64,000 bases of DNA from Loripinus fragilis. Its lineage: Eukaryota > Mollusca > Bivalvia > Lucinida > Lucinidae. This document shows positions 11,151-63,723 of this stretch, in pieces; positions within the stretch are counted from its first letter, which is position 1; each line of letters opens with the position of its first letter. Where the stretch lies: positions 78,224,831 through 78,288,830 of the forward strand of contig OZ026527.1 of assembly GCA_964019695.1 (NCBI GenBank), written 5' to 3'. The position numbers and the translations under genes were made by a program. The notes under the pieces were generated by a model. That model made no database searches, was not told the DNA's origin, and saw nothing but the letters and a program-made list of their open reading frames with translations.

Positions 11151-11645
11151 TATTACTTTACACACGACCGTTATGCTAACAGTATGTTACTATAAATAGA
11201 CAGCCAGGTAGAGGGTATCACTATTCCGAAACAATGGTATAAGTATTCCCGTAGGGGGAATTTGACGATATAGCCAATTTTAGTCTATGTGATGATTTTA
11301 AATAAAAAATAATTATGAAAAATCTCCACCGAGGATGAATTTGAAAAAATAAACTATGTAGGTCGGCAGCTCGGCTCGGCAGGGGGGGCTTTCAGACCCG
11401 ACCATGTCAATATGTCAATGTGTACCACCTCCATTGGGGAGTTTGTCTTCAATATCACTACCGGGGAGTTTAACTGAAGTTCGGTCCTGTATACCATTTT
11501 ACCGATTTTTTCCCCATGACAACCGTAAAACAGCACTAGCAAAATAAGCAGCAATATTTTAGTTTGTTTTTGACCAAATTTAAATAAAAGTAGGTTCGTT
11601 GTTTGGTGGCATGCTGAATGTGCATGCATTACGGCTGAGGACTGT

Positions 11646-12608: not shown

Positions 12609-12615
12609 TCTCAAA

Positions 12616-16718: not shown

Positions 16719-16879
16719 CTCTATAGGAATCCGGGACGTTTCGCCCCCAAACCATTTCCTCCCCTAGTCGTTTCGCCCCCTGGTCGTTTCCCCCCTGGTC
16801 GTTTCCCCCCTAGTCGTTTCGCCCCTACTAGTCGTTTCGCCTCACTAGTCGTTTCGCCCCACTAGTCGTTTCGCCCCTT

Positions 16880-20129: not shown

Positions 20130-20710
20130 AAAATGATTTTTTTGTATTTTTTTAAAAAATAATTTACCATGCAACTTTATGTTAAATTTCTATGAAACAT
20201 ATCAAAAGTATTCTGCGGCATACTGGGGTATCCTGCAGCAATAAGACCGATCCCCGCTCATTCACCCAGTCTGCATGTCCATCCGTCCGCCCATCCATCC
20301 ACCACCCTTCCACCTAGCTATCTATGACAAATAAATCATTAAAAATATTTGGGGGCGAAACGACTAGGGCGGAAATGGTATTGGGGGCGAAACGACTAGG
20401 GTATAGGGGGCGAAACGACCAGGGTTGAAAATAGAGGCGAAACGACTAGGGGGGAAACGACTAGGGGGGAATCGTCTTGGGGGCGAAACGTCTTGTTACC
20501 CTCTATAGTGGAGTAAGCTAATTTCGCCAAGAATGTAATTTCGCCAATTGAACATTCCCACCGTTTTTTCACTTGTAAAGTCATCGCAACACACCCAATT
20601 TACAACAGTCACCTATTTTCGACAAGCCATAGAAATGTACTAAAACACAGCATATTTTTTCTTGGCCTTGGCACTGTGCTTGTGAAGTGCAATATTGATT
20701 TTTTAATCAA

Positions 20711-36900: not shown

Positions 36901-39900
36901 TAAAACCTGCAAGTGCGGGACCAGTCGCGGATACTTACTTTGAACTGAAAATGCTTTGTTTATTTTATTTTGCCTTAGAAGGTGAAAAAATGGCCATAAT
37001 GTCGGGACTGCAGTGGCACTTGAAAAACGATTCTATTTTTCCCCTTTTTATTCTTATTTTTTTTATTTCAACTCCCAATGTCAATTGATTCTTGGATCAA
37101 TTCATCCCGCAGTTCATTAATGTAATAGCTACCAATTATGATCTATTAATGGACTAGTTGAACGTGAGTTATTTTGCCCCAAAATTGTGGCTATACGTCA
37201 TGATTTCGTTACCTCGAATTACTGACAAATCGACACATTTTGCTCAGTCCCTTGAAATTTGAGGTATCGAGAGTAGACTGTATATAAATTTGTTTGTCTT
37301 TTTTAACCCTTCGGCTATGATAAAAATGTAAAAATGTTGTCTGCTGAAGTTGTTTGCTGCATGTAAATGCTTATTGAAAATTAAGGACAAACAGCTTAGA
37401 TGTCTCAATATTTAGAGTACAGGGGTGTGGAAATAACATGCCCTACTTGTCCAACCTGGCCCCATTTCAATTAGAACAAATTAGAAAATTAAGGACAAGT
37501 ATAAAGGAAGTCAATCCAATTTGGTATTTCATTTTTTTAAAACTCAAATGTTGTACGGAAAACAGTGTGGAACCTGGATCTACACTGTTTACTTGGGAGT
37601 TTTATCTGGTTTCATGCTGTTTTTTGATCTATGCCTATTCACCTAAGTGATATATTTTTATATATCCAGGGCCAAAGATTCCAAGCTATGCCAGAGAGAC
37701 AATGACATCTCGTCAGCATACATGTGAAGATTTGTTTTCATCCAGAGAAATTCCAAAGCCAGATGCCTTAGAATTGAAGCGAAGTAGATCTGATCTCGGC
37801 GGAAGTATGATATCAGAGGAACCTCTTATAGATCAGGAGAGGAGAAAAGATGAAGAATACTTGGTAATTATTGCTTTTATTTTTGTTAACCTTACAAAAA
37901 CAACAACATAATTGAAGCGAAGTAGATCTGATCTCGGCGGAAGTACGATATCAGAGGAACCTCTAATAGATCAGGAGAGATGAAAAGATGAAGAATATTT
38001 GGTAATTATTTCTTATCTTTTTGTTAACAATTAGGTTAAATTGCCAGTCATACATCACCACATGGAATCCTATCAATTAATTGGATAATATTTGGGGGAC
38101 GAATGGAGTTCATGAAAATATCCTGTTAGTCCTATGATGTCCTATGAGCAGCAAAGTCTCAGACTAAAAGGTTGACCTATGCAAGATATGTCAGCATGAA
38201 TGGTTAACCCTTTACTCCATTTTAGCGCATTTTGACACCTTTGAAATATCATGTATTTGAAAATATTATGAAAAATGGAGCATTTGCTCTTTTTGAGCAA
38301 CTGCTCCATTTTCCATAATATTTTCAAAAGTATTCAAAACTTAACTTAAAACTTTCTTGAATTTTTTTCAATATTGTCTAAATATAGAAAATGATGTCAT
38401 GATTTTAAAAAACAGCAAATGGCGTAAAGAGTGAAAGAAAGTCTTTGCGCATGTGCTGGCCCATATGTTGTGGATACTTATCGGAAGCACCTCACTAAGC
38501 ATCATATTAATCATTTTCATGTAAATATAAGGAATTTATGAGCCGCGACATGAGATATCCAACAATATGACCTTTAGACAAGTGTAGATTCAGACAAGCC
38601 TATGCAGCCTCCTTTTAAGCTTAGAAACTCCAACTGATGTTTGGTCAGTAGCTTAATATTCATAGAATATTTTAGCAACTAGCAAAGGCTTTGAGCAGAC
38701 TGCGCATATGCGCAGGCTGGTCTGAGCTTTTGCTGGTTGCACATACCACATTTTTGGAAATCTTGTGTCCCGGCTCAATTATGTCCTGTTTTAATAGAAA
38801 AAACCTCCATGTCTCTATACAGTGGAATCTCATAATTTTGAAGTCCTAGGGACTAGAGATTTAATTTCGAACTATTGAATTATAGGGAGGTAGACATAAG
38901 AATATATAACTCCCCTAAAATGATTATTATCAGTTTTTTTCCCTATCAAACATATGTTTATGTATGTAAAAGAAGCATCTCAGGGACACGAAAATGAAAA
39001 CATGTGTATTATTAAGGATAGCATTTAAAATAGTTCATAAATATGACATTTTCTCTTAAACCATTGTGTCCGAAAATTATTTCGAATAATCGAGTATTTT
39101 GAATTTTAGAGGTTTTGCTGTAATTCTCTATTCATTTTGTAGGCCAAGTTTCCTCGCAGCGATGCTTGGAAGCAACAGATGCGAGAAGATCAGCGAGAGC
39201 AGGAAAGAACCAGTCTCAACAATTTACAGGCCATGACTAACTATTCTAGAAACCCGAGATTTATCCCCCCTTCAGCCCCAGGGGCTGGCAGCAGATCCCT
39301 CATTAAAGCTGAAAAATCCAAGCCAAAACAAATTGGAATACAAGAAAAACAATTAGAAGAAATGAAGTAAGTGTTTGATACTTTTCTTATTTTGAGATGG
39401 TGCTCATTGGAAGCATCTCTATGAGACAGTTCAAATGAGTTTAATACAATACAACTTGACCTTGCCTATGAGATCACGGTACTTATAGCGTATACACAAA
39501 CAGGCTTAGATTAACAAAATTTTTTTTACACAAAATTGTAAATATTTTCTTACCCATCAGTAAAACCATATGTTTTGGGTGCTCAAAAGAACCGTCTCAT
39601 TGAGGTTTTAGTTGAGAAATAATAAATTAATTTTTTTTGTACACACTCTAACCATACTTTAAATGTCCATACTGATCCAACTATCCAGTTGGGCCAGAGA
39701 GCTGCATTTTGGTTCGAGCTTCCACCTGCTTCCACTTTGAAATTGTGTGAAGGTTTGTAATTTTATTGTACAATTGCAGAGGCTCATCTGAGCCTTAGCT
39801 GGTGGTAAATGTAAAATAAATACCATAATCTCATCTGCCATAAATAGCTTGGAAAGTCAGAAAAGTAAAAATAATAATATTTTTACCCCTCCCCCCCCCC

Positions 39901-45900: not shown

Positions 45901-48900
45901 TTACGGTTGGCAAAATTGTAAGAGAAGCCCTATGGTACTCTGTGGTTGATGAGAACACTTATTAGTAATGAGAGATCCTACAGATACAAGCTGGCGTTAT
46001 ATCTCTCACAAATAAAGCCACACTCGATCACTATTTCAGAGGTTTCCTGAGAAAAGTCGCAAAAAACGGTTATCAGTTCATGTTGTGCTTCTCTACGTCA
46101 AAGTCTTCACTTATATACAATAACACTTCTATCATTCAGCTACATTTCTGCTAAATTTGAAGCCACAGTTTTATTTTATCAAGATATTGGATCCCATCAA
46201 AGATGACAGGTAGAGCAAAAACGGCTGCCTTTGTCAACAGATCAATTTTGAAGTGGCTGTCTATGATGACAGGTCATGAATTTCAGTGGCAAACATTGAT
46301 GACAGGTCTTAAGTCTAGAAAGTTACGTTAAATCAACATATTTCTTCAGCCTTTGGTCTCAACTGAGAGCATAAAGCATCTTCCTTATTGCATTCAGGTC
46401 AAAATAATCTTATCTGTTATTTGGTTAACTGATATTGATCATAGGTAAACAGTCTAGATCCAGACCATACACTTAAGAAACAGGGTCCATACTGTTTCTT
46501 AGAGAATTAAGATACCAAAAATATGCTCAAAATGATTTATGCTCTCAGTTGAGACCAAAGGCTGAAGAAATATGTTGGTTTAAAGTAACTTTCAAGAATT
46601 ATGACCTGTCATCAATGTTAGACACTAAAATACATGACCTGTCATCAAAGGCAGCCACTTTAAAATTGATCTGTTGACAAAGGCAGCCGTTTTTGCTCTA
46701 CCTGTCATCTTTGATGGGCTCCAATAACTTTATGAAATCTAACTGTGGCTTCAAATTTGGCAGAAATGTAGCTAAATGATAGAAGTTTCATTGTATATAA
46801 GTGCAGATATCAGTCTTTGATGGAGAGACGCACAACTTGAACTGATAACCGTTTTTTGTGACATTTCTCGAGAAACCTCTGAAATGATGATCAAGTGTGG
46901 CTTTATTTGTGAGAGATATAACGTCAGCTTGTTTCTGTAAGATCTCGCATTACTTACCAATTTACTCATCCACACAGAGTACCAGCGGCCTTCTCTTACA
47001 ATTTTGCCAACCAAAAATTATAACCTACCCTTCATGGGACATAAAATCGCTTATCTGTCATCACTGTTAGTAGCCTGTCAGCAAAGCGGCTGGTTGTACG
47101 GGGTGTTGCAGATGTAAGATATATTCTGATTGGTGGATAATTTAGATAGTCCGTTTCAATGAGCATAGAAAGCAGACTTGCAGATGTAAGATTGTTTCTG
47201 ATTGGTGGATAATTTAGAGTAAAGTTGATTATAGACAGCTCCCGCTGAAAAATATAATGCTTTGAAGATCACCTATGGGAAACCCCATTATAAATAATTG
47301 CTAAACTATTTTCCCTCAGTATATATTGACAATTGCAGTTTATTAAAGTCACATCAGTCTCAAACTTTGCAAAGGATATTTGGTCAACATTCTAAGTAAC
47401 CTGAGAAGAACCATGATATCAAAACTATTGGCTGGTAAAAACATATATTTCAAATCGAAAATTAATTATTTTAGGATCAATGCAAAGAGAAAGTGATGCT
47501 ATTTTTGGCTTTTATCAAGAATGCTTCAAATTACTTTCAGTACTTTGATTCTTATTTTTTCATTACTTTTAGTGCTGAAAGGAAGCAAATCATTTTTTAA
47601 ATCTTATTAGTACAGATACACTGTACCTGATTCTTTTTTAGCTTAAAAGCAGTTATTGTTTAAAATTTAAGACTTTAAGCTTTTTTGCACTCCATGACCT
47701 ATGACTTTTACCTTAACAGCCAATTACAAATCAGCAAACTGGCCAGGCATTAGTACAGATTCACATTAAAATTATTTCTGGCCTGGTGTTTTTTAAGCTC
47801 AAAAACAATTATTGCATGAAAAATAACATTTAGGCACTTTTTGCACTCCATGATCTTTAACCTCAGTCTTGACCTAAATAATCAATTGCAAATCTGCAGA
47901 CAGGCCTAGCTCTGTTATATAGACATTGGGCAAGCAGAATAACATTGTCTGCATCCATTAACAAGCCGGCCACCCATGTCTGAAAAAAAGAGATTGGACC
48001 ACCAGACTATAAATTAATTTCGAAATTATCAAGCAAAACATTTGTTTAAGGTGGTTCTTTTGAGTGCTCATAACAAATAGTTAGACTGGTACATAAAAGA
48101 TAGTGGCATTTGTATACCTGAATTTTTCTCCATTGATTTGATTAATAATGGTCCTCACAGCTCACATTATTACAGCTGACCTTGACTTTGAAAAATGTGT
48201 CATCCTGTATACGGCAGTGCAGGGCTCTACCAGTCTCCACCCCTTACTTCTCACTTGGTCTTGGTAAGTAGATTAAATGGACCTTGAACCCACAAAACCT
48301 GTCTTTAGGGCTTTCGACATAACAAGACTTAAACAAGTCTCCTCAGCTACAGAGACTAGCTTGAAAATTTGCTTGTAGCAAGTTTGGATAAGGTACTTTC
48401 CAATAAATGAATAACAAAGGTTCTGATCAGATTGCACGGATGTCCAGGCTGGTCTGTGCCTTTGTTGTTCACATACAGTGAAGACAGGTGTTCTTGCATT
48501 TGAAGCCCAAATGATTTACATTAGGCTAGTTCTGTTGCATTTTGATTCAAATATGAAGCTTTATAAAATGTTGCTATTCCCCTCTGCATGAGGGTCTGAA
48601 TGGGGAGTTGGGAGATGCAGGTCACCAGGGGAATGGAAGTATCGTGAAACCTTCTTTTTTTCCTTGCTAAAGACAACTTTTGTCGTCTTCTGATATTTAC
48701 CTTTGCAAACAGTTTGGACCCAGATCAGGACCCAAACAGTTTAAACTCTGATAGTGTTCCTGAAATTTTTTTTATAAAAAAAGTCAGCAGACGACAACAA
48801 AAGATGAGCAAAATTACCCAGCATGCAAAGAGTTAATCATTTTAAAGTTGAGAAAATAACATGGGTAAAGGTGGGAGAAAAAAAAATCATCATAAGAGCG

Positions 48901-51900: not shown

Positions 51901-54900
51901 TACTGACCATTCCAAGGCGGTACTTCTTTTGTAGATCTTTTATGTTTTTTCTGTCTTTTGTTTGCTATGCCTTTGAACACGTCTATTTATATGTGCCTTG
52001 TGGTCACCTGCTGGGAACAGGCTGACCTCTTGGCTCTCGTTTGTGGTGTCTAACTGTGAGTTTGTTACTTTCCCATTGGTATCCTGGGCCAGGTGTGGTA
52101 CTTGATTGCATCGATTCCTGATCTTTGCACCCTTACTTACTAAGCAAACCTTGCAATTGATCTTTCCCGCTAACTTTTTAAGATCCTCTATATTAAGTCA
52201 TATTTTGTTTGCTTTATTTTAGGTCAGTTTCCTGGGGAACATGGTCTTGTTGCACCAGGAATGAGTTGTCACTATGCTGTAAGATTTGCTCCAGACTCAC
52301 TGCGAGATTTCCATGATGAAATTAAAATACAGACCCAGTCTACTGTACCCATCACAGCTCCACTGTTGGGAAGAAGACCACCACCCAAACTTACATGTAA
52401 GAAAATGTACAATAAGTTAGGCACATGTGGTCTAGAATCAGTGGCAGGCAGCTGAGGCTTTAGTTAAGAATGTCTAACGATAAAATAATTTTCTTATTTC
52501 TCAACCAAAACATATGTTGTGGGTACTCAAAAGAACCGTCTCAATGAGATGGCTCTTTTGAACACCCAAAACATATATTAAAAATGGAGTACAATTGTAA
52601 GCTGAAAAATTTTGTTTATCAAAACCAATGAGTGATCTGTTAAAAAATGCTTGATGTTTTAGTTTCTTATTGCATATGGAGGAACTGTTCAGAATAAGAA
52701 ACCAGTGCAATTTTGCACATGATTTATATTTTGTACATCTAAGGAGCACAGTGGCTCAGTTGATAGAGTGTTAGACCTGGGATCGAATGGTTGCTAGTTT
52801 TAGCCTCACTGCTGTTGTGTCCTTGAGCAAGAGACTTTATCCACTACTCATTACTGAATCAACCCAGGAAGACCTGTCCCTACATGACTGTAAAATTGTT
52901 GACTGGGATATTAAGAATTAAACTAAACAAACGGACAAAAATAATTGTGCATTTCTATTGTATATTTTAAACTTTGGGTGTTTGTATCTAGGCCAAAAGA
53001 ATAAAAATTTTGTTCCAGTTAGGTCTACAATATTTTTAGGATCAAAAGGTAGGTAAATTTTTTTAAAAATAAATTATGGTAAAAGTATAAAAATCCTTTA
53101 AAAAGTTTAGTAATTGACTTTAATATTCCATAAGACTTCAAAATGACTAAAAACAATTATGGTAAAAAGTATGAAAATCCTTTGAAAAGTATAGAAATTG
53201 ACTTAAATATTCCTTAAGACTTCAAAATGACTAAATAAATATGGTAAAAAGTAGAAAAATCCTTTGAAAAGTATAGAAATAGACTTAAATATTCCATAAG
53301 ACTTCAAAATCTTTTGAGTAGGCCCCAAAATATTAGGGTCGGAAACAAGATTTTTTGTCCCCTATTTAAACAGTGAAACTTTGGATATTTCGTATATATT
53401 TAAGGTAATTGTGCTAGTGTCTAGTTGGAGGTTGTCATGTGACACAGCTGGTAGTAAAGAATGAAGGTGGTCCAGGAAGATTCTGTATTATGCCAAGTGC
53501 TGTATGGCCTACAACTAACTTTAAGGTAATTGTGCTATTGTCTAGTTGGAGGTTGTCATGTGACGCAGCTGGTAGTAAAGAATGAAGGTGGTCCAGGAAG
53601 ATTCTGTATTATGCCAAGTGCTGTATGGCCTACAACTAACTTTAGGGTAAGTGTGCTATTGTCTAGTTGGAGGTTGTCATGTGACGCAGCTGGTAGTAAA
53701 GAATGAAGGTGGTTCAGGAAGATTCTGTATTATGCCAAGTGCCGTATGGCCTACAACTAACTTTAAGGTAATTATGCTATTGTCTAGTTGGAGGTTGTCA
53801 TGTGACACAGCTGGTAGTAAAGAAAGATGGTGGTTCAGGAAGATTCTGTATTATGCCAAGTGCCGTATGGTCTACAACTAACTTTAAGGTAATTGTGCTA
53901 TTGTCTAATTGGAGTTTGTCACGTGACACAGCTGGTAGTCAAGAATGAAGGTGGTTCAGGAAGATTCTGTATTATGCCAAGTGCTGTATGGCCTACAACA
54001 AACTTTAAGGTAATTGTGCTATTGTCTAGTTGGAGGCTGTCATGTGACACAGCTGGTAGTAAAGAATGAAGGTGGTCCAGGAAGATTCTGTATTATGCCA
54101 AGTGCTGTATGGCCTACAACTAACTTTAAGGTAATTGTGCTATTGTCTAGTTGGAGGTTGTCATGTGACGCAGCTGGTAGTAAAGAATGAAGGTGGTCCA
54201 GGAAGATTCTGTATTATGCCAAGTGCTGTATGGCCTACAACTAACTTTAGGGTAAGTGTGCTATTGTCTAGTTGGAGGTTGTCATGTGACGCAGCTGGTA
54301 GTAAAGAATGAAGGTGGTCCAGGAAGATTCTGTATTATGCCAAGTGCTGTATGGCCTACAACTAACTTTAGGGTAAGTGTGCTATTGTCTAGTTGGAGGT
54401 TGTCATGTGACGCAGCTGGTAGTAAAGAATGAAGGTGGTTCAGGAAGATTCTGTATTATGCCAAGTGCCGTATGGCCTACAACTAACTTTAAGGTAATTA
54501 TGCTATTGTCTAGTTGGAGGTTGTCATGTGACACAGCTGGTAGTAAAGAATGAAGGTGGTTCAGGAAGATTCTGTATTATTCCAAGTGCTGTATGGCCTA
54601 CAACAAACTTTAAGGTAATTGTGCTATTGTCTAGTTGGAGGCTGTCATGTGACACAGCTGGTAGTAAAGAATGAAGGTGGTCCAAGAAGATTCTGTATTA
54701 TGCCAAGTGCTGTATGGCCTACAACTAACTTTAAGGTAATTGTGCTATTGTCTAGTTGGAGGTTGTCATGTGACGCAGCTGGTAGTAAAGAATGAAGGTG
54801 GTCCAGGAAGATTCTGTATTATGCCAAGTGCTGTATGGCCTACAACTAACTTTAGGGTAAGTGTGCTATTGTCTAGTTGGAGGTTGTCATGTGACGCAGC

Positions 54901-57900
54901 TGGTAGTAAAGAATGAAGGTGTTTCAGGAAGATTCTGTATTATGCCAAGTGCCGTATGGCCTACAACTAACTTTAAGGTAATTATGCTATTGTCTAGTTG
55001 GAGGTTGTCATGTGACACAGCTGGTAGTAAAGAATGAAGGTGGTTCAGGAAGATTCTGTATTATGCCAAGTGCTGTATGGCCTACAACAAACTTTAAGGT
55101 AATTGTGCTATTGTCTAGTTGGAGGCTGTCATGTGACACAGCTGGTAGTAAAGAATGAAGGTGGTCCAGGAAGATTCTGTATTATGCCAAGTGCTGTATG
55201 GCCTACAACTAACTTTAAGGTAATTGTGCTATTGTCTAGTTGGAGGTTGTTATGTGACGCAGCTGGTAGTAAAGAATGAAGGTGGTTCAGGAAGATTCTG
55301 TATTATGCCAAGTGCCGTATGGCCTACAACAAACTTTAAGGTAATTGTGCTATTGTCTAGTTGGAGGCTGTCATGTGACACAGCTGGTAGTAAAGAATGA
55401 AGGTGGTCTAGGAAGATTCTGTATTATGCCAAGTGCTGTATGGCCTACAACTAACTTTAAGGTAATTGTGCTATTGTCTAGTTGGAGGTTGTCATGTGAC
55501 GCAGCTGGTAGTAAAGAATGAAGGTGGTCCAGGAAGATTCTGTATTATGCCAAGTGCTGTATGGCCTACAACTAACTTTAGGGTAAGTGTGCTATTGTCT
55601 AGTTGGAGGTTGTCATGTGACGCAGCTGGTAGTAAAGAATGAAGGTGGTTCAGGAAGATTCTGTATTATGCCAATAGCCGTATGGCCTACAACTAACTTT
55701 AAGGTAATTATGCTATTGTCTAGTTGGAGGTTTTCATGTGACACAGCTGGTAGTAAAGAATGAAGGTGGTTCAGGAAGATTCTGTATTATGCCAAGTGCC
55801 GTATGGTCTACAACTAACTTTAAGGTAATTGTGCTATTGTCTAGTTGGAGTTTGTCACGTGACACAGCTGGTAGTCAAGAATGAAGGTGGTTCAGGAAGA
55901 TTCTGTATTATGCCAAGTTCTGCATGGCCTAAAACTACTTTTAAGGTAATTGTGCTATTGTCTGGTTGGAGGTTGTCATGTGACACAGCTGGTAGTGAAG
56001 AATGAAGGTGGTCCTGGAAGATTCTGTATTATGTCAAGTTCTGTATGGCCTACAACTAACTTTAAGGTAATTAGCCAGCATCCTGAATTACTGGTCGTTT
56101 AACCTTTTTAGACCAATGAAAATTTCTGTAAAGTTTGATACAGTTATACCATTTGAGCCATGACATAAGATTTCCAACAATTTGGTATGTGCGACCAGCA
56201 AAGGCTCAGACCAGCCTGCACATACATGCAGACTGATTAGAGCCTTTTCTGGTTGCTTAAATATTCTATGACTGTCACAGCAGCCTAGATAAGCAGTGTA
56301 TTTGCGTAAATACGCAATTAAAATCATCAAAAAAGCAATTAAAATTAAATGTGTGCCTAAAGAAAAGCAATTCCGTCGATAGGTATGTAATTACATGCGA
56401 TGACATTGCGTACCATTTGGTCCATTTCGTTTCCATTTGTGTGATATACAAATAATGTTCGGGAATTGATTTTTTTTACTAGCGAGCGCACAGTATAATT
56501 CCAATTTTATGAATAAAATATCGGCGCCAGTCAAGTATTTTAGCGGAAAAGTGGTGGTGAGCAACTAATGTCAACAAGGCGATGAGATTTGCTTCAAGTA
56601 CAATAAAAATCCACTAGTTTGATACTCAGAAAGGCAGACGATGAGAGTAAATATGTAGGCACATTCGGGATGGCTTCATTCAATAAGAAAATGTATGTAA
56701 TCACTACCAAAAACATGGCGTAAAAATATATAAAAATACGCAATTGTTTTTGCAAGTATGCAATTGAGGATAACAAGGTTGTGTAAATACCCAATTGACC
56801 AAAAAGCTTATCTGGGGCACTGCTGTTAAACTAGTGACCGAACCTCATTTGAGGCTTCTTAGTTTAAAAGGAGGCTGCACATGCTCGTCTGAATCTACGC
56901 TTGTCAAAATACCACATTGTTGGAAACCACATGTCACAGCCTATTTTCTATTTTGAGGGTCATGTGTAATATTTTCAGGTTCACTTTAAGTTATAACACA
57001 TTAATGGACCCCAAACAGCATTATAAATGGACTGTCTGTACATGCTAACGACTATCAGGATAAAAATTTAAAAATCGGGGAGGAGTGCAGTACATAAAAG
57101 TGTTCAGTTAAAGCTGCATAGTCTGTAATTTTTTATCTTTTAATTTTAGAAATTTTGTTTCTGTTTTTCAAGAACACAGTAAAAAAACTAAAATTCAGGT
57201 ATACATTTTACTATTTTCATAAATCTTAGCAAATTATCAGTATCCAAACAACAGAAATTATGTTTAAATTAGCTGTCTATAATAATTGGAGGGATGCAAA
57301 TAATTACCAACAAGAGAAAAAAAACACCTGTTTTGTAAGATAATTCACTTTTCCATGCAGTTTCCAGCTAAAGTGAACAGATTTATTGTGAAAACATTAC
57401 TTAATTCTACTTTTACAAAGATTTAAAAAGAAAAAAGGAAATGTTTCGAAAATGTTCATAGTTGCAGACTTAGTCTCTTTAAAGTAATTTTCTCTTCAGT
57501 CTGTAGTCCACAATGGGAATGTGCCTATTCCTCCATTTGATATAAGACCTGCTGTGTTAGAAATTGCCAAAGATGACACAGTTGTCATGGATATAGTATT
57601 CCAGCCTCCACAAGTGAAGAGTTACTCTGTGGACATGTGTATGGTGTGTGATAATTGTAATGTGAAACATTTCTCCATTAAAGGTAAGTATTATTGTGAG
57701 CCATGATGATACAGTTGTCATGGATATAGTATTCCAGCCTCCACAAGTGAAGAGTTACTCTGTAGACATGTGTATGGTGTGTGATAATTGTAATGTGAAA
57801 CATTTCTCCATTAAAGGTAGGTATTATTGTGAGCCATGATACACTTGTCATGGATATAGTATTCCAGCCTCCACAAGTGAAGAGTTACTCTGTGGACATG

Positions 57901-60900
57901 TGTATGGTGTGTGATAATTGTAATGTGAAACATTTCACCATTAAAGGTAAGTACTATTGTGAGCCATGATGATACAGTTGTCATGGATATAGTATTCCAA
58001 CCTCCACAAGTGAAGAGTTACTCTGTGGACATGTGTATGGTGTGTGATAATTGTAATGTGAAACATTTCTCCATTAAAGGTAAGTATTATTGTGAGCCAT
58101 GATGATACAGTTGTCATGGATATAGTATTCCAGCCTCCACAAGTGAAGAGTTACTCTGTGGACATGTGTATGGTGTGTGATAATTGTAATGTGAAACATT
58201 TCTCCATTAAAGGTAAGTATTATTGTGAGCCATGATACACTTGTCATGGATATAGTATTCCAGCCTCCACAAGTGAAGAGTTACTCTGTGGACATGTGTA
58301 TGGTGTGTGATAATTGTAATGTGAAACATTTCACCATTAAAGGTAAGTACTATTGTGAGCCATGATGATACAGTTGTCATGGATATAGTATTCCAACCTC
58401 CACAAGTGAAGAGTTACTCTGTGGACATGTGTATGGTGTGTGATAATTGTAATGTGAAACATTTCTCCATTAAAGGTTAGTATTATTGTGAGCCATGATG
58501 ATTCAGTTGCCATGGATATAGTATTCCAACCTCCACAAGTGAAGAGTTACTCTGTAGACATGTGTATGGTGTGTGATAATTGTAATGTGAAACATTTCAC
58601 CATTAAAGGTAAGTACTATTGTGAGCCATGATGATACAGTTGTCATGGATATAGTATTCCAACCTCCACAAGTGAAGAGTTACTCTGTGGACATGTGTAT
58701 GGTGTGTGATAATTGTAATGTGAAACATTTCTCCATTAAAGGTAAGTATTATTGTGAGCCATGATGATACAGTTGTCATGGATATAGTATTCCAGCCTCC
58801 ACAAGTGAAGAGTTACTCTGTGGACATGTGTATGGTGTGTGATAATTGTAATGTGAAACATTTCTCCATTAAAGGTAAGTATTATTGTGAGCCATGATAC
58901 ACTTGTCATGGATATAGTATTCCAGCCTCCACAAGTGAAGAGTTACTCTGTGGACATGTGTATGGTGTGTGATAATTGTAATGTGAAACATTTCACCATT
59001 AAAGGTAAGTACTATTGTGAGCCATGATGATACAGTTGTCATGGATATAGTATTCCAACCTCCACAAGTGAAGAGTTACTCTGTGGACATGTGTATGGTG
59101 TGTGATAATTGTAATGTGAAACATTTCTCCATTAAAGGTTAGTATTATTGTGAGCCATGATGATTCAGTTGCCATGGATATAGTATTCCAACCTCCACAA
59201 GTGAAGAGCTACTCTGTAGACATGTGTATGGTGTTTAGTAATTGTAATGTGAAACATTTCTCCATCAAAGGTAAGTATTATTGTGAGCCATGATGATACA
59301 GTTGTCATGGATATAGTAATCCAGCCTCCACAAGTGAAGAGCTACTCTGTAGACATATGTATGGTGTGTGATAATTGTAATGTGAAACATTTCTCCATTA
59401 AAGGTAAGCATTATTGTGAGCCATGATGATACAGTTGTCATGGATATAGTATTCCAGCCTCCACAAGTGAAGAGTTACTCTGTGGACATGTGTATGGTGT
59501 GTGATAATTGTAATGTGAAACATTTCTCCATTAAAGGTAGGTATTATTGTGATTCATGTCTGGGAAATTATCTTTGGTCTAGATAAACACATATTTTGAG
59601 CGTAATCTTGTACATCAGTTTAACCCCAGGGATTTTCTTACCTTTCTGAAGTCCGGACCAGGGGCCTGGTTATTTGGGAAAAAAAAGCATTTGGATCATC
59701 AAAGTTGGGAAAACTGGATGCAGTCTAAAAGAACTGGACCGCAATTTTAAATTGATTAAAACCATGGATTTAAGAAATTAGCTGCTTCAATTGCCCTTCA
59801 TAAAACCTCAAGAAAGTTTGTATAAAACTGTGAATGAAAGCATGTTTTCATTCACATTTTTATACAAATTTTCATGCATTTATAACTTTGCTATTTTTGT
59901 TCAGATTTTCATGAAATTTTCACCAAAATGTAGAACTATTAAATTTGGAATGATACACACCATTTTGGGAAGTTTTTGCTCTTTTTATACCCCGCCACAC
60001 TTTAGTGTGGGGGTATTATGTTATACCTTTCGGTGTCTGTCCGTCTGTCCGTCCGTCCATCCGTGCTCACCATTTCCGATCGATAACTTGAGTATTTATT
60101 CACGGAATTTTTTCAAATTTTGCATACATATTGTTATCGGCGATGAGTGGTATGGGATTGTTAATGGGCAAAATCCGTCCATTTTTAACGGAGTTACTGC
60201 CCTTTTTCGTATTGGAAAAATGGTTTCTGGCCTGTTATTCCTTTACTGTTCATGATATCTGAATGAAACTTCACAGATATGTTGCACATCAAAGGTTACA
60301 TATTGTGACTAAGGACCCTCACTCTGACCTTCCCAGTTTGTGAGTTATCCGCCCTTGATAGGTCTGAAAAAAGGTTTTTGACCTATTGTTCCTTTACTAT
60401 ATGGAATATCTGAATATAACTTCACAGATATGTTTCACATCAAAGGTAACATATTGTGACTAAGAACCGTCACTCTTACCTTTCACGTTTGTGAGTTATC
60501 CGCCCTTGATTGAATTAAAAAATGTTATTTTACCCGTAGTTCCTTTACTATGTGGAATATTTAAATGAAACTTTACAGATATGTTTCACATCAAAGGTTA
60601 CATACTGTGACAAAGAACCATCACTCTTACCTTTCCAGTTCATGAGTTATCTGCCCTTGATTGATCTGAAAAATGGTTTTTGACCTGTAGTTCATTTACT
60701 ATATGGAATATCTGAATGAAACTTCACAGATATGTTGATCATCAAAGGTTACATATTGTGACTAAGGATCGTCACTCTTACCTTTCCAGATTGTGAGTTT
60801 TCCACCCTTGATTGATCTGAGATTTGGTTTTTGGCCTGTAGTTTCTTTTACTATATGGAATATCTGAATGAAACTTCACAGATATGTTGAACATCAAAGG

Positions 60901-63723
60901 TTACATATTTTTAGTAAGGACCGCCACCCTTACCTTTCCAGTTCATGAGTTATCCGCCCTTGATTGATCTGAAAAATGGTTTTTGACCTGTAGTTCATTT
61001 ACTATATGGAGTATCTGAATAAAACTTCACAGATATGTTGACCATGAAAGGTTACATATTGTGGGTAAGGATCGTCACTCTTACCTTTCCAGATTGTGAG
61101 TTATCCACCCTTGATTGATCTAAGAATTGGTTTTTGACCTGTAGTTCATTTCATCTGTCCGTGCTCACTGTTTCCGATCGATAACTTGAGTATTTATGCA
61201 CAGAATTTTTTCAAATTTTGCATACATATTGTTATTGGGGATGAGTGGTATGGGATTGTTAATGGGCAAAATCCGACTATTTTCGATGGAGTTACTGCCC
61301 CTTCTCCCTTTAAAAAATGGTTTCTGGCCTGTTATTCTTTTACTGTTTATGATATCTGAATGAAACTTCACAGATATGTTGAACAGCAAAGGTTACATAT
61401 TACAACGAAGGACCGTCACTCTTAACTTTCCAGTTCATGAGTTATCGGCCCTTGATTAATCTGGAAAATGTTTTTGACCTGTTGTTCCTTTACTATATGA
61501 AATATCTGAATGAAACTTCACAGATATGTTGACCATCAAAGGTTACATATTGTGACTAAGGACGTCATATCACTGTCTATCTCAGTTCTGTTGCTATTTA
61601 GGCATTTTATATCTCACAAAATAACTTTTGGTGCCCCCAGCAGTGGCGGGGTATTGTGCAGTGCTTGCGGTGCTTTTAGTTTAATTGGGAAAGGGCTGAT
61701 ATTCAGACCCAATCAGACCTAGGAAAATCTCTGAACCTTTTGTATTTGAGAAACCCTTAAACAGGTACTTTTGCAAACAGTGAAGACCCCGATGGAATGC
61801 AGCATAATGCTGCTTTTCATCAGGGTCTGCACTTTTTGCTGAAGCCAAATCAATTTTCAGGGACAAAAATACATAAACGTTTGGAGATTTGTGACCTGTG
61901 ACCCCTTAAGATATATAAAGGACAATATCATCTGCATTTATACGAGACATATGAGAGGACCCATCAGAATACAAAGGTTTGAACATTTGTTTTGAGTTCT
62001 AGTTGAGACTGTTCTTTTGAGTGCACACAACATATGTTTAGGTTGAGAAATAAGAAAGTTTATTTTTTAATTACAAATGCTCACTCAAACCATTATGTTG
62101 AGCCCCGATTTATCATTTTTGAATACACTGTAGATTCAGCTTGGCTGATCAAGGCAATAGCTAAGGTCAATTTTGTTATTCAATGGTGGATATCAATGTT
62201 AATTTCAATAAAACAATAGTCATTATCTATTTTATTATATATATTGTGATTTTCAAGTAAGTACATGGCACATGCACAGAGATGACATTACTACAGATAC
62301 TTGATACTTACCGGCTTGGATGCAAATTAGTCACTTTTCAATCGGGAAAATCCCAGGTCAGTAACTACAACGTAGTGGTATCACAAATTACTAGATAGAC
62401 TGGAAAGACTTCTGAGCCAATGAAAATCTGTTTTAGGTCATGTAATAATGTTTAGTATACAAAACAGCTTTGATTGACTTATTCCATTCTTTCAAGGTGA
62501 AGCAGAGAAGGCTGGTGTGGATTTAGTTTCCGTGGAGCGAGGCACAACACAACCACTGCCTGGTGAATTGACAGATGCTACGGCCCAACATCTGATAAGA
62601 TTTGATAACCTCAATCCCTTCACCTATACTGACAGATCTTGTGTTGTTAAGAATGTGACGTAAGTAATACCTACCATATTTGTCTAAATTTGTCAGTGGT
62701 GCCAGTTGGTCGTACTATAAATCCTAACAGTGTTGGTTTAAAATGTATTTATTGCATAAATTAGTTATATACATTTCAAAAAGCATAGTATAAAAAGTAT
62801 CACGATTGGAGAACAAGCTAGGCAGCTTATAAGTATTCACTCTTGTTTCAATGTTGACCCCTGTTTTGAAAATTGTCTAAATCCAGATCAGCTGGCTTTG
62901 AGAGGCATAGTAGATCTCATACCTGATTTCCAGGTGCTCCTTTCTTGGGGTCAACTGTTTTCACTCATATCAGTCCTTCTCAGTCAACTTTTTCCATGCC
63001 AGCTTGGGCCTCCCTGGCCCACATCTGCGGTCAGCCTGTATATTACATGCTGTTCTGGCTGCACCACTAGAAAGCCCCACATGTTTAAACCAGCAAAGCC
63101 TTTTCTCAAAATGAGGTCAAGGTCTTCAAGCTCAAGCTTTGCCAGTAGCTCACTTGACCATACTGTGGCCACATGCTCTGGCTTAATACTGCAGATCTAT
63201 CTAATAATGGCCAAGTCATTGCGCTGCATTGGCACTCCACATACAAGAGTTGTACACATGGCTGCAGGTCTTGTAAGAGAGGTGGCAGGACGTGAGAAGA
63301 CTAAGCAGAGTCATATGTTGTGGGTACTCAAAAGAACCATCTCAGTTAGACAGTTCTTTTGAGCATGCAAAACAAATGTTTAAACTGATGGATAAGAAAA
63401 TGTTCACACTTTTACTTTTAATGTTTTTGTTTATTTGGACCTGTGTCATGAAGAAATACATGTATTCCTAATCTTGTGCCTGCTTTTTGCTGATTTTCAT
63501 CAAATAAATATCATGTTTTTGTGATCTGTCTTGTAGAAATGTCAGCCTTCCATTCCAATGGATGATCTACAAGCCCCAGTTTGATAGTCCGGGTTCCAAC
63601 TCAGCCAGTAAGAAATATGACCGGGTACCAGATGTAGACTCTGTCTTCAGTATTCACCCACCAACAGGAGTCCTACCACCAGCGGAACAAATGGAATTTA
63701 AGATTACATATGCCCCTCCCATT
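33791..63723 (+). CDS. DLEC1: DLEC1 / CFAP81 orthologue, 5' third, twelve exons (3' end outside window)
   Basis: DLEC1 is a ciliary protein, also called CFAP81, built from many immunoglobulin-like ASH/MSP-type domains and needed for sperm flagella in mice. I identified it from several blocks matching vertebrate DLEC1: MLERHIMQAQARA, SCIDTELLKKH, NPRFIPP, STPYFSLGLG, VAPGMSCHYAVRF, RRPPPKLT, GRFCIMP, MVCDNCNVKHFSI and PGELTDATAQHLIRF. Exons by position: 33791-33982, 34784-34937, 36012-36122, 37670-37863, 39143-39366, 43013-43094, 48176-48263, 52223-52396, 53425-53525 (or another repeat copy), 57500-57683, 62497-62659, 63537-63723. All junctions have GT/AG sites and matching phases. The twelve exons total about 618 codons; human DLEC1 has about 1750. 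Two oddities: an in-frame TGA in exon 2 and an uncertain exon 9 start. Introns hold many transposons. Confidence 0.9.
34254..34496. mobile_element. MITE, family A (copy 7) in DLEC1 intron 1
   Basis: TTGAGCTGCGACGCGAGATT at the left, TTGTTGGAAATCACATGTCA at the right. Confidence 0.8.
34644..34706. repeat. Hairpin in DLEC1 intron 1
   Basis: AATTCTTCCTAAAGCACTTG, TCCTACAGGA, then the complement CGAGTGCTTTGGGAAGAATT. Related CTGCAGGACGAGTG motifs lie at 34532-34570. Confidence 0.65.
34784..34937 (+). CDS. DLEC1: DLEC1 exon 2, with an in-frame TGA
   Basis: Acceptor TTCTTCAG|GTATTTGATG; donor CCCG|GTATGC, phase 1. MLERHIMQAQARA matches vertebrate DLEC1 nearly residue for residue. Codon 36 of the exon is TGA (34889-34891), after RELN. 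Past the TGA the same frame stays similar to DLEC1 (LGLPPG against LVRLPP) and joins exon 3 in phase. So the stop interrupts an otherwise conserved exon. It may be a null allele, a base error, or an undetected splicing difference; no GT donor lies between the conserved block and the TGA that would skip it in phase. Confidence 0.8.
35138..35370. mobile_element. MITE, family B (copy 3) in DLEC1 intron 2
   Basis: TGAGCATCAACATGACAAAA at the left, CAATCTCCTCAGCTACAGAG inside, GACAGGTTTTCTCGCGCGGA at the right. Confidence 0.75.
35846..35937. mobile_element. Hairpin MITE, family C
   Basis: ACATTTGTTTTGGTGCTCAA is followed by the near-complement TTTTGAACACCCAAAACATA, a self-complementary element of about 90-110 bp. 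Other copies or parts: 8237-8305, 39556-39640, 42870-42962, 52492-52582, 61975-62056, 63312-63396. Confidence 0.75.
36012..36122 (+). CDS. DLEC1: DLEC1 exon 3
   Basis: Acceptor CATCTTAG|GCAGG, donor CTCG|GTAAGC; enters and leaves in phase 1. Encodes GRSNFRSCIDTELLKKHRLL, which aligns with the vertebrate CIDSELLRKH block, followed by a proline-rich PAPIPPPL end. Confidence 0.9.
36189..37280. mobile_element. TA-flanked element (Tc1/mariner-like), 1.09 kb
   Basis: Left end TA|CAGTCGACTCTTGTTAACTC; right end complemented TA|CAGTCTACTCTCGATACCTC. TA stands at both borders. The interior repeats motifs such as CTCGAC and AACTCGAT. No intact transposase. Confidence 0.7.
37670..37863 (+). CDS. DLEC1: DLEC1 exon 4
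   Basis: Acceptor TATATCCAG|GGCCAAAG, donor TTG|GTAATT, phase 1 in, phase 0 out. 64 codons, charged and probably disordered: SYARETMTSRQ, LELKRSRSDLGG, QERRKDEEYL. Recognised by position and splice phase between two conserved exons rather than by strong similarity. Its last 91 bp and the start of intron 4 are duplicated immediately downstream. Confidence 0.8.
37911..38048 (+). pseudogene. Tandem copy of the 3' end of DLEC1 exon 4 plus its donor
   Basis: Repeats 37773-37910 with a period of 138 bp and no indels through the donor: ATTGAAGCGAAGTAGATCTG, then TCAGAGGAACCTCTAATAGA, then TTTG|GTAATTATTTCTTA. Relative to the exon, AGGAGA has become AGATGA, which puts a TGA in the reading frame. No acceptor precedes it, so it can only act as an alternative 5' splice site or be inert. 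Confidence 0.9.
38264..38332. repeat. Palindrome in DLEC1 intron 4
   Basis: TTGAAAATATTATGAAAAAT GGAGCATTTGCTC ... GAGCAACTGCTCC ATTTTCCATAATATTTTCAA forms a near-perfect hairpin. Confidence 0.75.
38537..38778. mobile_element. MITE, family A (copy 8, reversed)
   Basis: ATGAGCCGCGACATGAGATA at the left, TTTTTGGAAATCTTGTGTCC at the right. Confidence 0.75.
38820..39120. mobile_element. TA-flanked MITE, 301 bp
   Basis: TA|CAGTGGAATCTCATAATTTT at the left; complemented right end TA|CAGCAAAACCTCTAAAATTC. TA borders at 38818-38819 and 39121-39122; Tc1/mariner type. It ends 22 bp before exon 5. Confidence 0.65.
39143..39366 (+). CDS. DLEC1: DLEC1 exon 5
   Basis: Acceptor TTCATTTTGTAG|GCCAAG, donor ATGAA|GTAAGTG, phase 0 in, phase 2 out. 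The DQREQERTSLNN stretch and the motif YSRNPRFIPPSAP match the vertebrate FLKNPRFFPP region, followed by a basic SLIKAEKSKPKQIG segment. Confidence 0.9.
39882..39920. repeat. Poly(C) and (CA)n tract
   Basis: A long C run then CACACACA. A 96-codon open frame over it is a repeat artefact. Confidence 0.9.
40479..40624. mobile_element. Palindromic MITE
   Basis: TTACTTTTTTGAGGTGAATA, AAATATATTTCATCGAGTGC and CGGTGAAAAAATC, then the same in complement, ending GTAAAAAAGTAAA. The central loop is GAGTGCGTAGCACGAG. Confidence 0.75.
40750..41785. mobile_element. TA-flanked element (Tc1/mariner-like), 1.04 kb
   Basis: Left TA|CAGTCGAACTTCGTTGGCTC; right, complemented, TA|CAGTCGAACTTTGGTCGCTC. TA stands at 40748-40749 and 41786-41787. 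GTTCGAGC motifs recur inside both ends. No transposase recognised. Confidence 0.75.
42410..42708. mobile_element. TIR MITE (AAACCTGTCTTAAGCGGCCA ends)
   Basis: The left AAACCTGTCTTAAGCGGCCA and the right GGCCGCTTTTAAGACAGGTT are inverted. The neighbouring bases are TA-rich, which fits Tc1/mariner-type insertion. About 300 bp, no ORF. Confidence 0.65.
42870..42962. mobile_element. Hairpin MITE, family C
   Basis: AACATTTGTTTTCAGTCCTC ... GAGGACCTACAACATATGTT, self-complementary. It ends about 50 bp upstream of DLEC1 exon 6. Confidence 0.7.
43013..43094 (+). CDS. DLEC1: DLEC1 exon 6
   Basis: Acceptor TGCTCTTTTTAG|GTCTGAGG, donor TACGAG|GTAAGG; phase 2 in, phase 0 out. SQVFLVSPPEVVFSEYKVGQ aligns with the vertebrate segment that opens the first ASH-like domain ([20 protein letters not shown]). 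The last residues, VYE, continue in exon 7. Confidence 0.9.
45345..45425. repeat. GACAATTCGGCGACAC-type minisatellite
   Basis: Units GAGACAACTCGTCGACAGAT, GAGACAATTCGGCGACACTT and GAGACAACTCGACGACACCT, about 27 bp apart. Confidence 0.75.
45800..47110. repeat. Inverted repeat with arms of about 580 bp
   Basis: The left arm (about 45800-46380) and right arm (about 46535-47110) are reverse complements over nearly their whole length. Examples: GAAGGGTAGGTTATAATTTA against AAATTATAACCTACCCTTCA, and GCAAAAACGGCTGCCTTTGT against CAAAGGCAGCCGTTTTTGCT. The spacer is about 150 bp. GATGACAGGT recurs in the arms. Just outside, TAGTCCGTTTCAATGAGCAT occurs at 45776 and again, in direct orientation, at 47147. 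Confidence 0.85.
48176..48263 (+). CDS. DLEC1: DLEC1 exon 7
   Basis: Acceptor CATTATTACAG|CTGACC, donor CTTG|GTAAGTAG; phase 0 in, phase 1 out. Encodes LTLTLKNVSSCIRQ and then CRALPVSTPYFSLGLG, matching vertebrate RVLPPSTPYFALGLG. Exons 6 to 8 together form one ASH/MSP-like domain. An alternative AG 15 bp upstream (CCTCACAG at 48160) would add five residues in frame; alignment favours the one chosen. Confidence 0.9.
48278..48510. mobile_element. MITE, family B (copy 4)
   Basis: TGGACCTTGAACCCACAAAA at the left, AAGTCTCCTCAGCTACAGAG inside, GACAGGTGTTCTTGCATTTG at the right. It begins 14 bp after the exon 7 donor. Confidence 0.7.
49180..50395. mobile_element. Non-autonomous hAT-like element with perfect 8-bp duplication
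   Basis: Left end CAAGGTTGGGCGGTCGAAAC; right end, complemented, CAAGGTTGGCAATCGACCGG. TGCTCATG flanks it exactly on both sides (49172-49179, 50396-50403), the hAT signature. The ends are rich in TGGTCAATATG and GACCAGTAATGACCA motifs. 1216 bp; no hAT transposase in the interior. Confidence 0.85.
50404..51826. other. DLEC1 intron 7 sequence without recognised element
   Basis: AT-rich, no clear repeat or coding similarity. A GGTGAGGCAGCGAACCCCCT block near 51592 may be part of an unrecognised repeat next to the repeat D copy. Confidence 0.4.
51827..52133. repeat. Interspersed repeat D, copy c
   Basis: Matches 10847-11150 along its length, including CCAATAAAATATTATACTG (hairpin slightly broken), AAGGCGGTACTTCTTTTGTA and GTACTTGATTGCATCGATTC. 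It ends about 90 bp before DLEC1 exon 8. Confidence 0.75.
52223..52396 (+). CDS. DLEC1: DLEC1 exon 8
   Basis: Acceptor GCTTTATTTTAG|GTCAGTT, donor ACAT|GTAAGA, phase 1 on both sides. GQFPGEHGLVAPGMSCHYAV, then FAPDSLRDFHDEI and LGRRPPPKLT, is a strong match to vertebrate DLEC1 ([30 protein letters not shown]). Confidence 0.95.
52492..52582. mobile_element. Hairpin MITE, family C
   Basis: CCAAAACATATGTTGTGGGT, ACTCAAAAGAACCGTCTCAA, then GAGATGGCTCTTTTGAACAC and CCAAAACATATA: a nearly complete self-complementary copy. Confidence 0.75.
52741..52936 (+). mobile_element. tRNA-derived SINE
   Basis: An A-box-like AGTGGCTCAGTTGATAGAGT head, a degenerate B-box region GGTTGCTAGTTTTAGCC, then GTGTCCTTGAGCAAGAGACT and a TTGTTGACTGGGATATTAAG tail. 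The tail also occurs at 32540 (CTGTTGACTGGGACATAAAG), so another copy probably lies around 32420-32580. Confidence 0.6.
53078..53312. repeat. 80-bp tandem repeat, 3 copies
   Basis: GGTAAAA...AAAATCCTTT, AATATTCC and TAAGACTTCAAAATGACTAA recur three times with a spacing of about 80 bp, just upstream of the exon 9 array. Confidence 0.8.
53405..56066 (+). repeat. Exon-derived tandem array: 22 units of 121 bp
   Basis: Units start (at GTAA) at 53405, 53526, 53647 and so on to 55946, with the last donor at 56067: 2662 bp = 22 x 121 with no net indel. Each unit is the 101-bp DLEC1 exon 9 coding part, its donor, and a 20-bp linker GTAATTGTGCTATTGTCTAG that itself begins GT and ends AG. Units differ at a few sites (ACA/ACG, CCA/TCA, GCT/GCC, ACT/ACA before AAC, AAG/AGG at the donor). 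These define types that recur in blocks, for example units 3-5 resemble 19-21. 121 is not a multiple of 3, so reading through shifts frame. Confidence 0.97.
53425..53525 (+). CDS. DLEC1: DLEC1 exon 9, first copy in the array
   Basis: Encodes GGCHVTQLVVKNEGGPGRF and CIMPSAVWPTTNFK, a clear match to vertebrate DLEC1 (RFCIMPKTSWPPLSFK). The donor is AAG|GTAATT, phase 0. With the acceptor GTGTCTAG|TT the phase fits exon 8, but about 11 residues found in vertebrates before GG (ending DCGYCLI) would be missing. The 12 bases upstream encode a similar CLV and, in later copies, YCLV, so the true exon may once have extended further. Any of the 22 copies could serve as the exon. Confidence 0.7.
56153..56943. 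mobile_element. MITE family A (copy 9), split by a hAT-like MITE
   Basis: Left half 56153-56279 (TTGAGCCATGACATAAGATT) and right half 56823-56943 (ATTGTTGGAAACCACATGTC) are the two halves of the family, separated by the element at 56280-56822. Confidence 0.8.
56280..56822. mobile_element. hAT-like MITE nested in family A
   Basis: Left end GCAGCCTAGATAAGC; right end, complemented, CAGTGCCCCAGATAAGC. Flanks CTGTCACA and CTGTTAAA agree at 6 of 8 positions, a likely 8-bp duplication. The interior has repeated AATACGCAATTAAAATC and CGTAAAAATATATAAAAATACG motifs. 543 bp, no ORF. Confidence 0.7.
56944..57499. other. DLEC1 intron 9, no recognised element
   Basis: AT-rich. Ends with AATTTTCTCTTCAG, the exon 10 acceptor. 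Confidence 0.5.
57500..57683 (+). CDS. DLEC1: DLEC1 exon 10
   Basis: Acceptor TTTTCTCTTCAG|TCTGTA, donor AAAG|GTAAGT; phase 0 in, phase 1 out. IPPFDIRPAVLEIAKDDTVV and the end MVCDNCNVKHFSIK align with vertebrate PPFGILPSVFELAPGHAILV and IMCDNCQIKE. Forms part of the second ASH-like domain with exon 9. The last 105 bp or so, with the donor, are the source of the array that follows. Confidence 0.95.
57684..59536 (+). repeat. Exon-derived tandem array: 14 units of 133 or 130 bp
   Basis: Donors stand at 57684, 57817, 57947, 58080, 58213, 58343, 58476, 58609, 58742, 58875, 59005, 59138, 59271, 59404 and 59537. Eleven units are 133 bp and three are 130 bp (the shorter ones read CCATGATACACTTG instead of CCATGATGATACAGTTG). 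Each unit is GTAAGTATTATTGTGAGCC, then exon 10 from about GATACAGTTGTCATGG to ATTAAAG. No unit contains the exon's acceptor. Read-through from exon 10 meets a TGA about 22 bp past the donor. A five-unit period of 662 bp is visible (units 4-8 resemble 9-13). Confidence 0.97.
59550..59986. other. DLEC1 intron 10, no recognised element
   Basis: A TGTATAAAACTGTGAATGAAAGCA ... TTCACATTTTTATACAAATTT hairpin lies near 59818-59872; otherwise unremarkable. Confidence 0.4.
59987..61654. mobile_element. TIR element with 151-bp internal tandem repeats (ATACCCCGCCAC ends)
   Basis: An exact 12-bp inverted terminal repeat: ATACCCCGCCAC (59987-59998) and GTGGCGGGGTAT (61643-61654). Inside, CTTCACAGATATGTT recurs at 60269, 60420, 60571, 60722, 60874, 61025, 61366 and 61517, spacing 151-152 bp except across one restart. 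The leader CCGATCGATAACTTGAGTAT occurs twice (about 60076 and 61175), so the tandem block itself was duplicated. GTCCGTCTGTCC microsatellite near the left end. No transposase. Confidence 0.85.
61660..62496. other. Rest of DLEC1 intron 10
   Basis: Contains a family C hairpin remnant at about 61975-62056 (AACATTTGTTTTGAGTTCTA ... CACACAACATATGTTTAGGT). Otherwise no recognised feature up to the exon 11 acceptor TTCTTTCAAG. Confidence 0.5.
62497..62659 (+). CDS. DLEC1: DLEC1 exon 11
   Basis: Acceptor CATTCTTTCAAG|GTGAAGC, donor GTGAC|GTAAGT; phase 1 in, phase 2 out. PLPGELTDATAQHLIRFDNL matches vertebrate [20 protein letters not shown] very closely; RSCVVKNVT begins the next ASH-like domain. Confidence 0.97.
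62660..63536. other. DLEC1 intron 11
   Basis: Holds a 154-codon open frame (62898-63362) with no recognisable domain, which I regard as chance, and a family C hairpin copy at 63312-63396 (TCATATGTTGTGGGTACTCA ... CTTTTGAGCATGCAAAACAA). Confidence 0.5.
63537..63723 (+). CDS. DLEC1: DLEC1 exon 12 (last in window)
   Basis: Acceptor GATCTGTCTTGTAG|AAATGTC, donor CCCATT|GTAAGT; phase 2 in, phase 0 out. NVSLPFQWMIYKPQ matches vertebrate HVELAFYWQIMKPN, and VFSIHPPTGVLPPAEQMEFK matches AFSIMPRKGVLSPHTDHEF. The gene continues to the right of the window. Confidence 0.95.

Follow-up and report, generated by a model that had tools for sequence, protein, structure and literature searches.

Tandem arrays of DLEC1 exon ends in the bivalve Loripinus fragilis: probable splice-site mirages rather than a bank of cassette exons

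A copy of the cilia gene DLEC1 lies in a 64,000-nt stretch of the genome of the lucinid bivalve Loripinus fragilis (GenBank assembly GCA_964019695.1, contig OZ026527.1, positions 78,224,831 to 78,288,830; hereafter the window, whose own positions are used below; all features described are on the forward strand). Exon 8 (52223-52396, donor GTAAGA at 52397) and exon 10 (184 nt, 57500-57683, donor GTAAGT at 57684) were placed by their match to DLEC1, in agreement with the exon 8 donor (52397) and exon 10 acceptor (57499) named in an earlier reading of the same letters, the original prediction. Exon 7 (48176-48263) and exon 11 (62497-62659), both single here, were recognised by alignment to DLEC1 and by comparison with sibling loci. 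Between exons 8 and 10 lies array 1 (53399-56072), defined by Tandem Repeats Finder (TRF), unit alignment and translation, in which 22 units of 121 bp follow one another. TRF gave a period of 121 with 22.1 copies, 95% matches and 0% indels, and all 21 spacings between units measure exactly 121 bp, so that the units differ by point changes only, as had been described. Each unit consists of the last ~112 nt of exon 9, a donor (GTAATT or GTAAGT) and ~9 intronic nucleotides; the 101-nt coding stretch of DLEC1 is open in 22/22 units and the GT follows in 22/22. The units fall into 16 sequence types, and because some of these types recur in the same order, blocks of several units were probably copied within the array. 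A second large array, not described before, occupies 57572-59552 (array 2; TRF and sequence). Its 133/130-bp units are made of the last ~112 nt of exon 10, the donor and ~21 nt of intron, so that 15 donors succeed one another without any acceptor.

The attribution of the gene to DLEC1, already proposed, is borne out by protein comparison. The peptide encoded by exons 8 to 10 of the window matches chain 9ijj_O, 'Deleted in lung and esophageal cancer 1', with E=8e-33, and FAP81 (7n6g_4C) with E=1.5e-22. In both alignments, where the 101-nt 'exon 9' begins, the window peptide falls 11 residues short of DLEC1 and FAP81. When exons 7 to 11 were joined, one copy of each and with the missing 11 residues added, the product aligned to residues 388-635 of 9ijj_O with 228.8 bits (E=7.5e-67) and a single one-residue gap. 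The exons therefore match DLEC1 in their order, and a product with one copy of each exon has no need of the extra splice signals in the arrays.

The source of the 11 residues was found at the sibling loci, where the first unit is preceded by TTTCAG|TACCAAGTGTTGTTGATGTTGGCTATTGTCTAGTTGGAGG, which translates to (L)PSVVDVGYCLVGGCHVTQ in frame from exon 8. Since these 33 upstream nucleotides supply precisely the residues absent from the first DLEC1 alignment, the earlier border had been misplaced: the true exon 9 measures 134 nt and uses the acceptor TTTCAG, 33 nt upstream. Of the 26 stretches compared, a stretch being one retrieved piece of the genome, 22 have the AG at this border; the other four are the window, L011 (an N gap), L012 (a cut locus end, the true start of this locus being in L013) and L025 (a different flank). 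The original prediction had given every unit an AG before and a GT after a 101-nt exon. The GT stands in every unit, the AG only in 20/22 (units 5 and 22 are without it), and this AG is no exon acceptor, because the TCTAG before the units is made of the codons CTA GTT within exon 9 (Leu-Val in GYCLVGG). The 101-nt 'exon' is thus the 3′ part of the 134-nt exon, and the exon 9 copies do not have an acceptor of their own. A CTAAC seen by eye 27 nt before TCTAG, which would let each preceding unit provide a branch point, was weighed as support for internal acceptors; the argument lapsed when TCTAG turned out to be coding. The linkers of 20 bp between units are, as had been stated, too short to serve as introns. 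The idea that 4 or 7 copies together would keep the frame fails, because the later copies would be read in another frame and the joined sequence would not stay open.

The unit of array 1 is not private to the window. When the genome of the same animal (1.99 Gb) was searched for the exon 9 unit, 282 matches were reported, and retrieval of every listed place gave at least 267 distinct units at at least 26 loci (275 units in the raw set, where the units of L012 and L013, the two ends of one locus, overlap; the stretch L030 holds two loci). Among the matches listed, contig 16 holds 13 loci within its final 18 Mb, the window being one of them; contigs 12 and 13 have a single locus apiece, and the remaining 11 are found on smaller contigs. 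The end of the 94-Mb contig 16 (76.77-93.97 Mb), with 13 of the 26 listed loci, has the look of a duplication-rich region. As assembled, the loci carry 1, 1, 2, 2, 2, 2, 3, 3, 3, 4, 5, 6, 7, 7, 7, 9, 10, 13, 13, 15, 17, 20, 20, 20, 22 (the window) and 53 units; the locus with 4 is cut by a contig end and the one with 15 adjoins an N gap. This range, from 1 to 53, is one among paralogous loci and not among alleles or cells. Exon 8 adjoins the array in 20 of the 25 sibling stretches as well as in the window, and exon 10 was found in 18 of the 25 and in the window, its own array varying from 1 to 15 units over these 19 stretches. The presence of both exons beside the sibling arrays indicates that segments of the gene were copied. 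A dispersed mobile element carrying exon 9, suggested by the 26 places at which the unit lies, was rejected as an explanation, since duplication of the gene or of segments fits these flanking exons better.

Such numbers could in principle be the work of the assembler, which may have inflated or collapsed the arrays, and the original prediction had itself allowed for a single exon copy multiplied in assembly. Some features would agree with this: a 200-N gap adjoins the array at L011, L027/L029 and L021/L022 are nearly identical pairs, and the two seven-unit arrays of L030 share the order of their unit types. Against it stand at least 26 loci with differing copy numbers, the 16 sequence types among the window units, and the absence from the window of a unique flank, whose removal is not expected from simple collapse. 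An artefact of assembly is hence very improbable. The L030 pair (contig 16, 82.100 and 82.108 Mb; 7.1 kb apart) reflects either a local duplication of very recent date or one introduced in assembly. Beside the arrays, an intronic minisatellite of 82-84 bp also differs between loci: TRF found three 82-bp units left of array 1 in the window (53067-53310), and there are ~23 units left of the exon 9 array in the sibling L013.

Which of the units is used can be approached through the constraint on each of them. Differences from the consensus were counted once each as nonsynonymous or synonymous (N:S), with neutral ratios computed per exon. The tests were made on the raw set and on units of 101 nt or 108 nt only, which retains 265/275 units of exon 9 and 89/93 of exon 10 (17/19 first units); the window, L012 and L011, where the left edge is missing, cut or N, do not enter the class of exon 9 first units. 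In this class, 23 first units gave an N:S of 7:16, as against a mean of 23.2:18.6 when one later unit was drawn per stretch (22 stretches), and 0/2000 such resamples were as low as the first units. The result was unchanged after removal of three near-duplicate stretches. Exon 10 behaved alike, with 11:12 in 17 first units versus 34.5:13.5 in later ones, again with 0/2000 resamples as low. In-frame stops were found in 0/17 first and 12/72 later units of exon 10. The last units of exon 9 (34:19 in 20 units) are not constrained like the first. Of the exons present in single copy, exon 7 gave 2:10 in 12 copies (neutral ratio 2.4) and exon 8 gave 11:36 in 19 copies (neutral ratio 2.7). Signs of constraint are thus confined to the unit that adjoins the true acceptor, which suggests, as far as sequence comparison goes, that the first donor is probably used and that the later units are intron.

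The reading frame points in the same direction. A stop lies between the first and the second donor in 21 of 24 multi-unit stretches (57 nt past the first donor in the window); of the other three, two have a stop just past the second donor, and L023 has one inside the first unit. In exon 10 of the window, the stop comes 20 nt past the first donor. Because reading past the first donor meets a stop, most arrays are tolerable only as intron.

These observations bear directly on the proposal that the array is a bank of cassette or mutually exclusive exons, in which each unit would serve as an alternative exon of 101 nt, with TCTAG as its acceptor site and with a donor of its own. The proposal draws on the AG before 20/22 and the GT after 22/22 of the window units, on the open frame of all 22, and on the fact that an exon of 101 nt would keep the frame from exon 8 to exon 10, at the cost of 11 residues. 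It is opposed by the real acceptor lying 33 nt upstream in 22/26 stretches, with conserved DLEC1 residues encoded in those 33 nt, and by the arrays of the same type at exons 10 and 11, whose units have no acceptor. The copies also appear neither selected nor diversified: their N:S is higher than that of the first units, and in the window the encoded peptide is nearly identical from unit to unit. A cassette bank is accordingly very unlikely at exon 9. The window copy has lost its true acceptor, so that the unit AGs are all that remains there, and for this reason the cassette idea could apply, by accident, to this damaged copy alone.

Four observations weigh against the view that the later units are idle intron. 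The 218 middle units of exon 9 gave, on raw cells, an N+X:S of 449:408 where the neutral ratio is 2.96; part of this low ratio may reflect variants that come from a constrained source and subsequent homogenisation. In L034, an array at another exon of the gene treated below, 37 later units gave 22:13 in the same measure (neutral ratio 2.78), with 1 stop. Among the 267 units, the AG of TCTAG is kept in 230 and the GT of the donor in 261, so that cryptic use is conceivable. Finally, the array of exon 12 in L036 has an acceptor, an exon and a donor in each unit, as a cassette array would.

The loss of the acceptor in the window was located by comparing the left flanks of the 26 stretches. The flank follows that of the siblings to ~53391 and then switches into array sequence (TATATATTTAAGGTAATTG), giving a junction without exon 9 acceptor at 53391-53404. 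What the sibling loci have and the window copy lacks is TTTCAG with the initial ~22 nt of exon 9, and a search of the rest of the window allowing up to 6 edits did not find the missing exon start. Since the true acceptor is gone, the window copy is probably damaged and, judging from its letters, no longer normal: it is left with splicing around exon 9, which at 134 nt would shift the frame, with the use of one of the TCTAGs, or with silence.

A further reading takes the family for one of pseudogenes, with many copies, the window included, dead or partial and the arrays growing in junk. Besides the lost acceptor, the points in its favour are a stop within the first unit of L023, the absence of the donor G from L032, and altered lengths of exon 8 in L014 and L028. 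In addition, all 20 listed matches to a later DLEC1 domain, Ig6, fall at 76.80 Mb of contig 16, so that other copies may lack the later half of the gene. Purifying selection is seen, in contrast, over the whole set at exons 7 and 8 and at the first units of exons 9 and 10. This Ig6 site shares its strand with the ten-unit exon 9 array L033, which lies ~25 kb upstream of it, and the 47-kb stretch of contig 16 that comprises L033, L035, L036, L034 and L037 would be the most complete DLEC1 copy. As this Ig6-bearing copy itself has large arrays, arrays are no sign of gene death. Such a pseudogene family is possible but doubtful, and it would be compatible with reading the arrays as intron.

The arrays of the 47-kb stretch, which were defined by TRF, extend the phenomenon to other exons. 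Besides exon 9 (L033, 10 units), exon 11 forms an array of 12.9 copies of 100 bp in L035 (contig 16, 76.78 Mb), with 13 donors, all GTAAGT, and a unit without acceptor. The exon of Ig6 is repeated 38.4 times in L034 (121 bp; 38 donors, all GTAAGT), and with its neighbour it matches DLEC1 residues 935-1030 with E=9e-12. Two further exons were numbered ad hoc 12 and 13, their membership in DLEC1 resting on position. Exon 12 has 3.8 copies, as four units, of 116 bp (L036, 3925-4361), each with acceptor, exon and donor. Exon 13 has 2 copies of 102 bp, with four donors spaced 128, 102 and 120 bp. The linkers of the exon 12 array measure 22 nt and its last copy ends differently (GGAAAG|GTAAGA); this could be a true cassette array. 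Elsewhere, exon 7 of L010 is repeated in four 117-bp units on its acceptor side, with a donor only on the last copy. Arrays thus occur at five exons matched to DLEC1 (7, 9, 10, 11 and that of Ig6) and probably at three further exons of the gene. Exon 10 is single in the 47-kb stretch and exon 11 is single in the window, which indicates that the arrays expand and shrink separately in each gene copy.

Of the eight exons with arrays, seven have repeats that end ~8-47 nt past the donor (by eye), the eighth being exon 7 in L010 with its acceptor-side array. A rough binomial estimate of the overlap between arrays and exons gave P 0.0001-0.001 for the gene at 76.77 Mb and P 0.01-0.02 for the window, exon 9 being left out; the numbers of arrays and exons were estimated and both values are indicative. 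Two other domains served as controls. Neither the 74 matches to Myosin_head (65 of 266 candidates scored) nor the 95 to DHC_N2 (103 of 125 candidates scored) showed arrays by eye, in the sense of matches that recur over one profile range at the spacing of an array, and to the extent that so small a sample can tell, array formation is not a general feature of the genome. Two of the myosin-head matches, at 11382442-11383248 of contig 19, cover overlapping parts of the profile (83-138 and 94-136) at a distance of 687 bp and are possibly a duplicated alternative exon. The ends of the repeats near the donor and the 169 myosin and dynein matches without arrays would argue for a duplication process tied to the transcription or splicing of DLEC1, and not for random slippage. 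The combined proposal that DLEC1 is a hotspot of such exon-end duplications and that the window copy has been rescued through the AGs of its array is rather unlikely. If it were true, 20 in-frame cryptic AGs would offer the window copy an exon shorter by 11 residues, born of the mirage.

Taken as a whole, array 1 is very probably a splice-site 'mirage' minisatellite, to use the term applied to repeats of this plan in amphioxus, whose later units drift as intron and do not form a usable bank of exons; this conclusion is drawn from the genomic sequence. Its unit, like that of exon 10, spans the exon-intron boundary. A tandem duplication would have taken the 3′ part of DLEC1 exon 9 together with the donor and a few bases of the intron, and the duplicated segment would then have grown and shrunk as a minisatellite. 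In intact sibling copies, exon 8 would be spliced to the TTTCAG acceptor and the first donor used, leaving the other units in the intron, and transcripts that read on to a later donor would meet a stop and would presumably be degraded by nonsense-mediated decay. The multi-unit loci have their linker in common, so the founding duplication probably took place before or during the spread of the DLEC1 copies, copy number becoming locus-specific (1 to 53) afterwards. Independent duplications of the same kind would account for the arrays at other exons.

The window contains further elements. A probable upstream exon, exon A (GPKIPSYARETM...DEEYL; 37670-37863), has an open frame, AG/GT borders and a donor GTAATT at 37864. 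No convincing match was found (best E=0.35, unrelated), and its membership in DLEC1 is unconfirmed. Its 3′ end, the donor and ~46 nt of intron form a two-unit tandem of 138 bp (37772-38028; TRF and translation), also absent from the original prediction, with an in-frame stop in the second copy. At 11574-16524, two overlapping open frames of 344 and 1392 aa look like a non-LTR (long terminal repeat) retrotransposon, with zinc knuckles, endonuclease, reverse transcriptase and RNase H recognised by eye. TRF also found a tandem array of CGTTTCGCCCCCTAGT with a period of 15-23 bp at 16737-16877, and its reverse complement 3.5 kb further on at 20377-20495; the pair may represent inverted termini of a single element.

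Arrays that span an exon-intron border have precedents. In the amphioxus genes Adh3, globins BflGb6 and BflGb9, troponin C and PGBD5, they were called 'mirages', and these reports describe few units and many extra copies with GT/AG signals, splicing being apparently undisturbed (PMC3087553, PMC3902484). The DLEC1 units likewise span the border and their extra copies carry splice signals, but they number up to 53, compared with 6 in BflGb6 (PMC3087553), and concern several exons of one gene at at least 26 dispersed loci, in a genome (1.99 Gb) too big to be that of an amphioxus. Paralogues in human segmental duplications show differing minisatellite expansions, some at exon-intron boundaries, for which novel introns were suggested; the human internal tandem repeats average 30 bp in 4 copies, half of them in coding sequence (PMC2812944). 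Copy number differs between paralogues at exon-intron borders in DLEC1 as well, although with units of 100-138 bp, up to 53 copies, whole splice borders and several exons of one gene. A tandem duplication across such a boundary can turn former exon sequence intronic (PMC4974935). The same would have happened to the exon sequence in the DLEC1 arrays, except that no new intron position is seen and the intron just gained copies.

Mutually exclusive exon clusters of the Dscam type consist of many head-to-tail copies of one exon. The DLEC1 unit differs from these in having no acceptor, no protein diversification and weakly constrained later copies. A literature search, with most subscription papers outside its reach, found no case of border repeats in DLEC1 or in molluscs. 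The DLEC1 arrays share the plan of the mirages and differ in the larger size of the arrays, the several exons involved and the many gene copies.

In amphioxus, mirages were described as minor oddities of a small number of genes. The DLEC1 loci of L. fragilis provide a natural series in which the same exon is followed by 1 to 53 donors. This series opens the question of how, among many donors that are almost identical, the spliceosome comes to choose the first, and that of how former exon sequence turns into intron and may yield new exons. For genome annotation the arrays call for caution, in that mirages resemble banks of exons.

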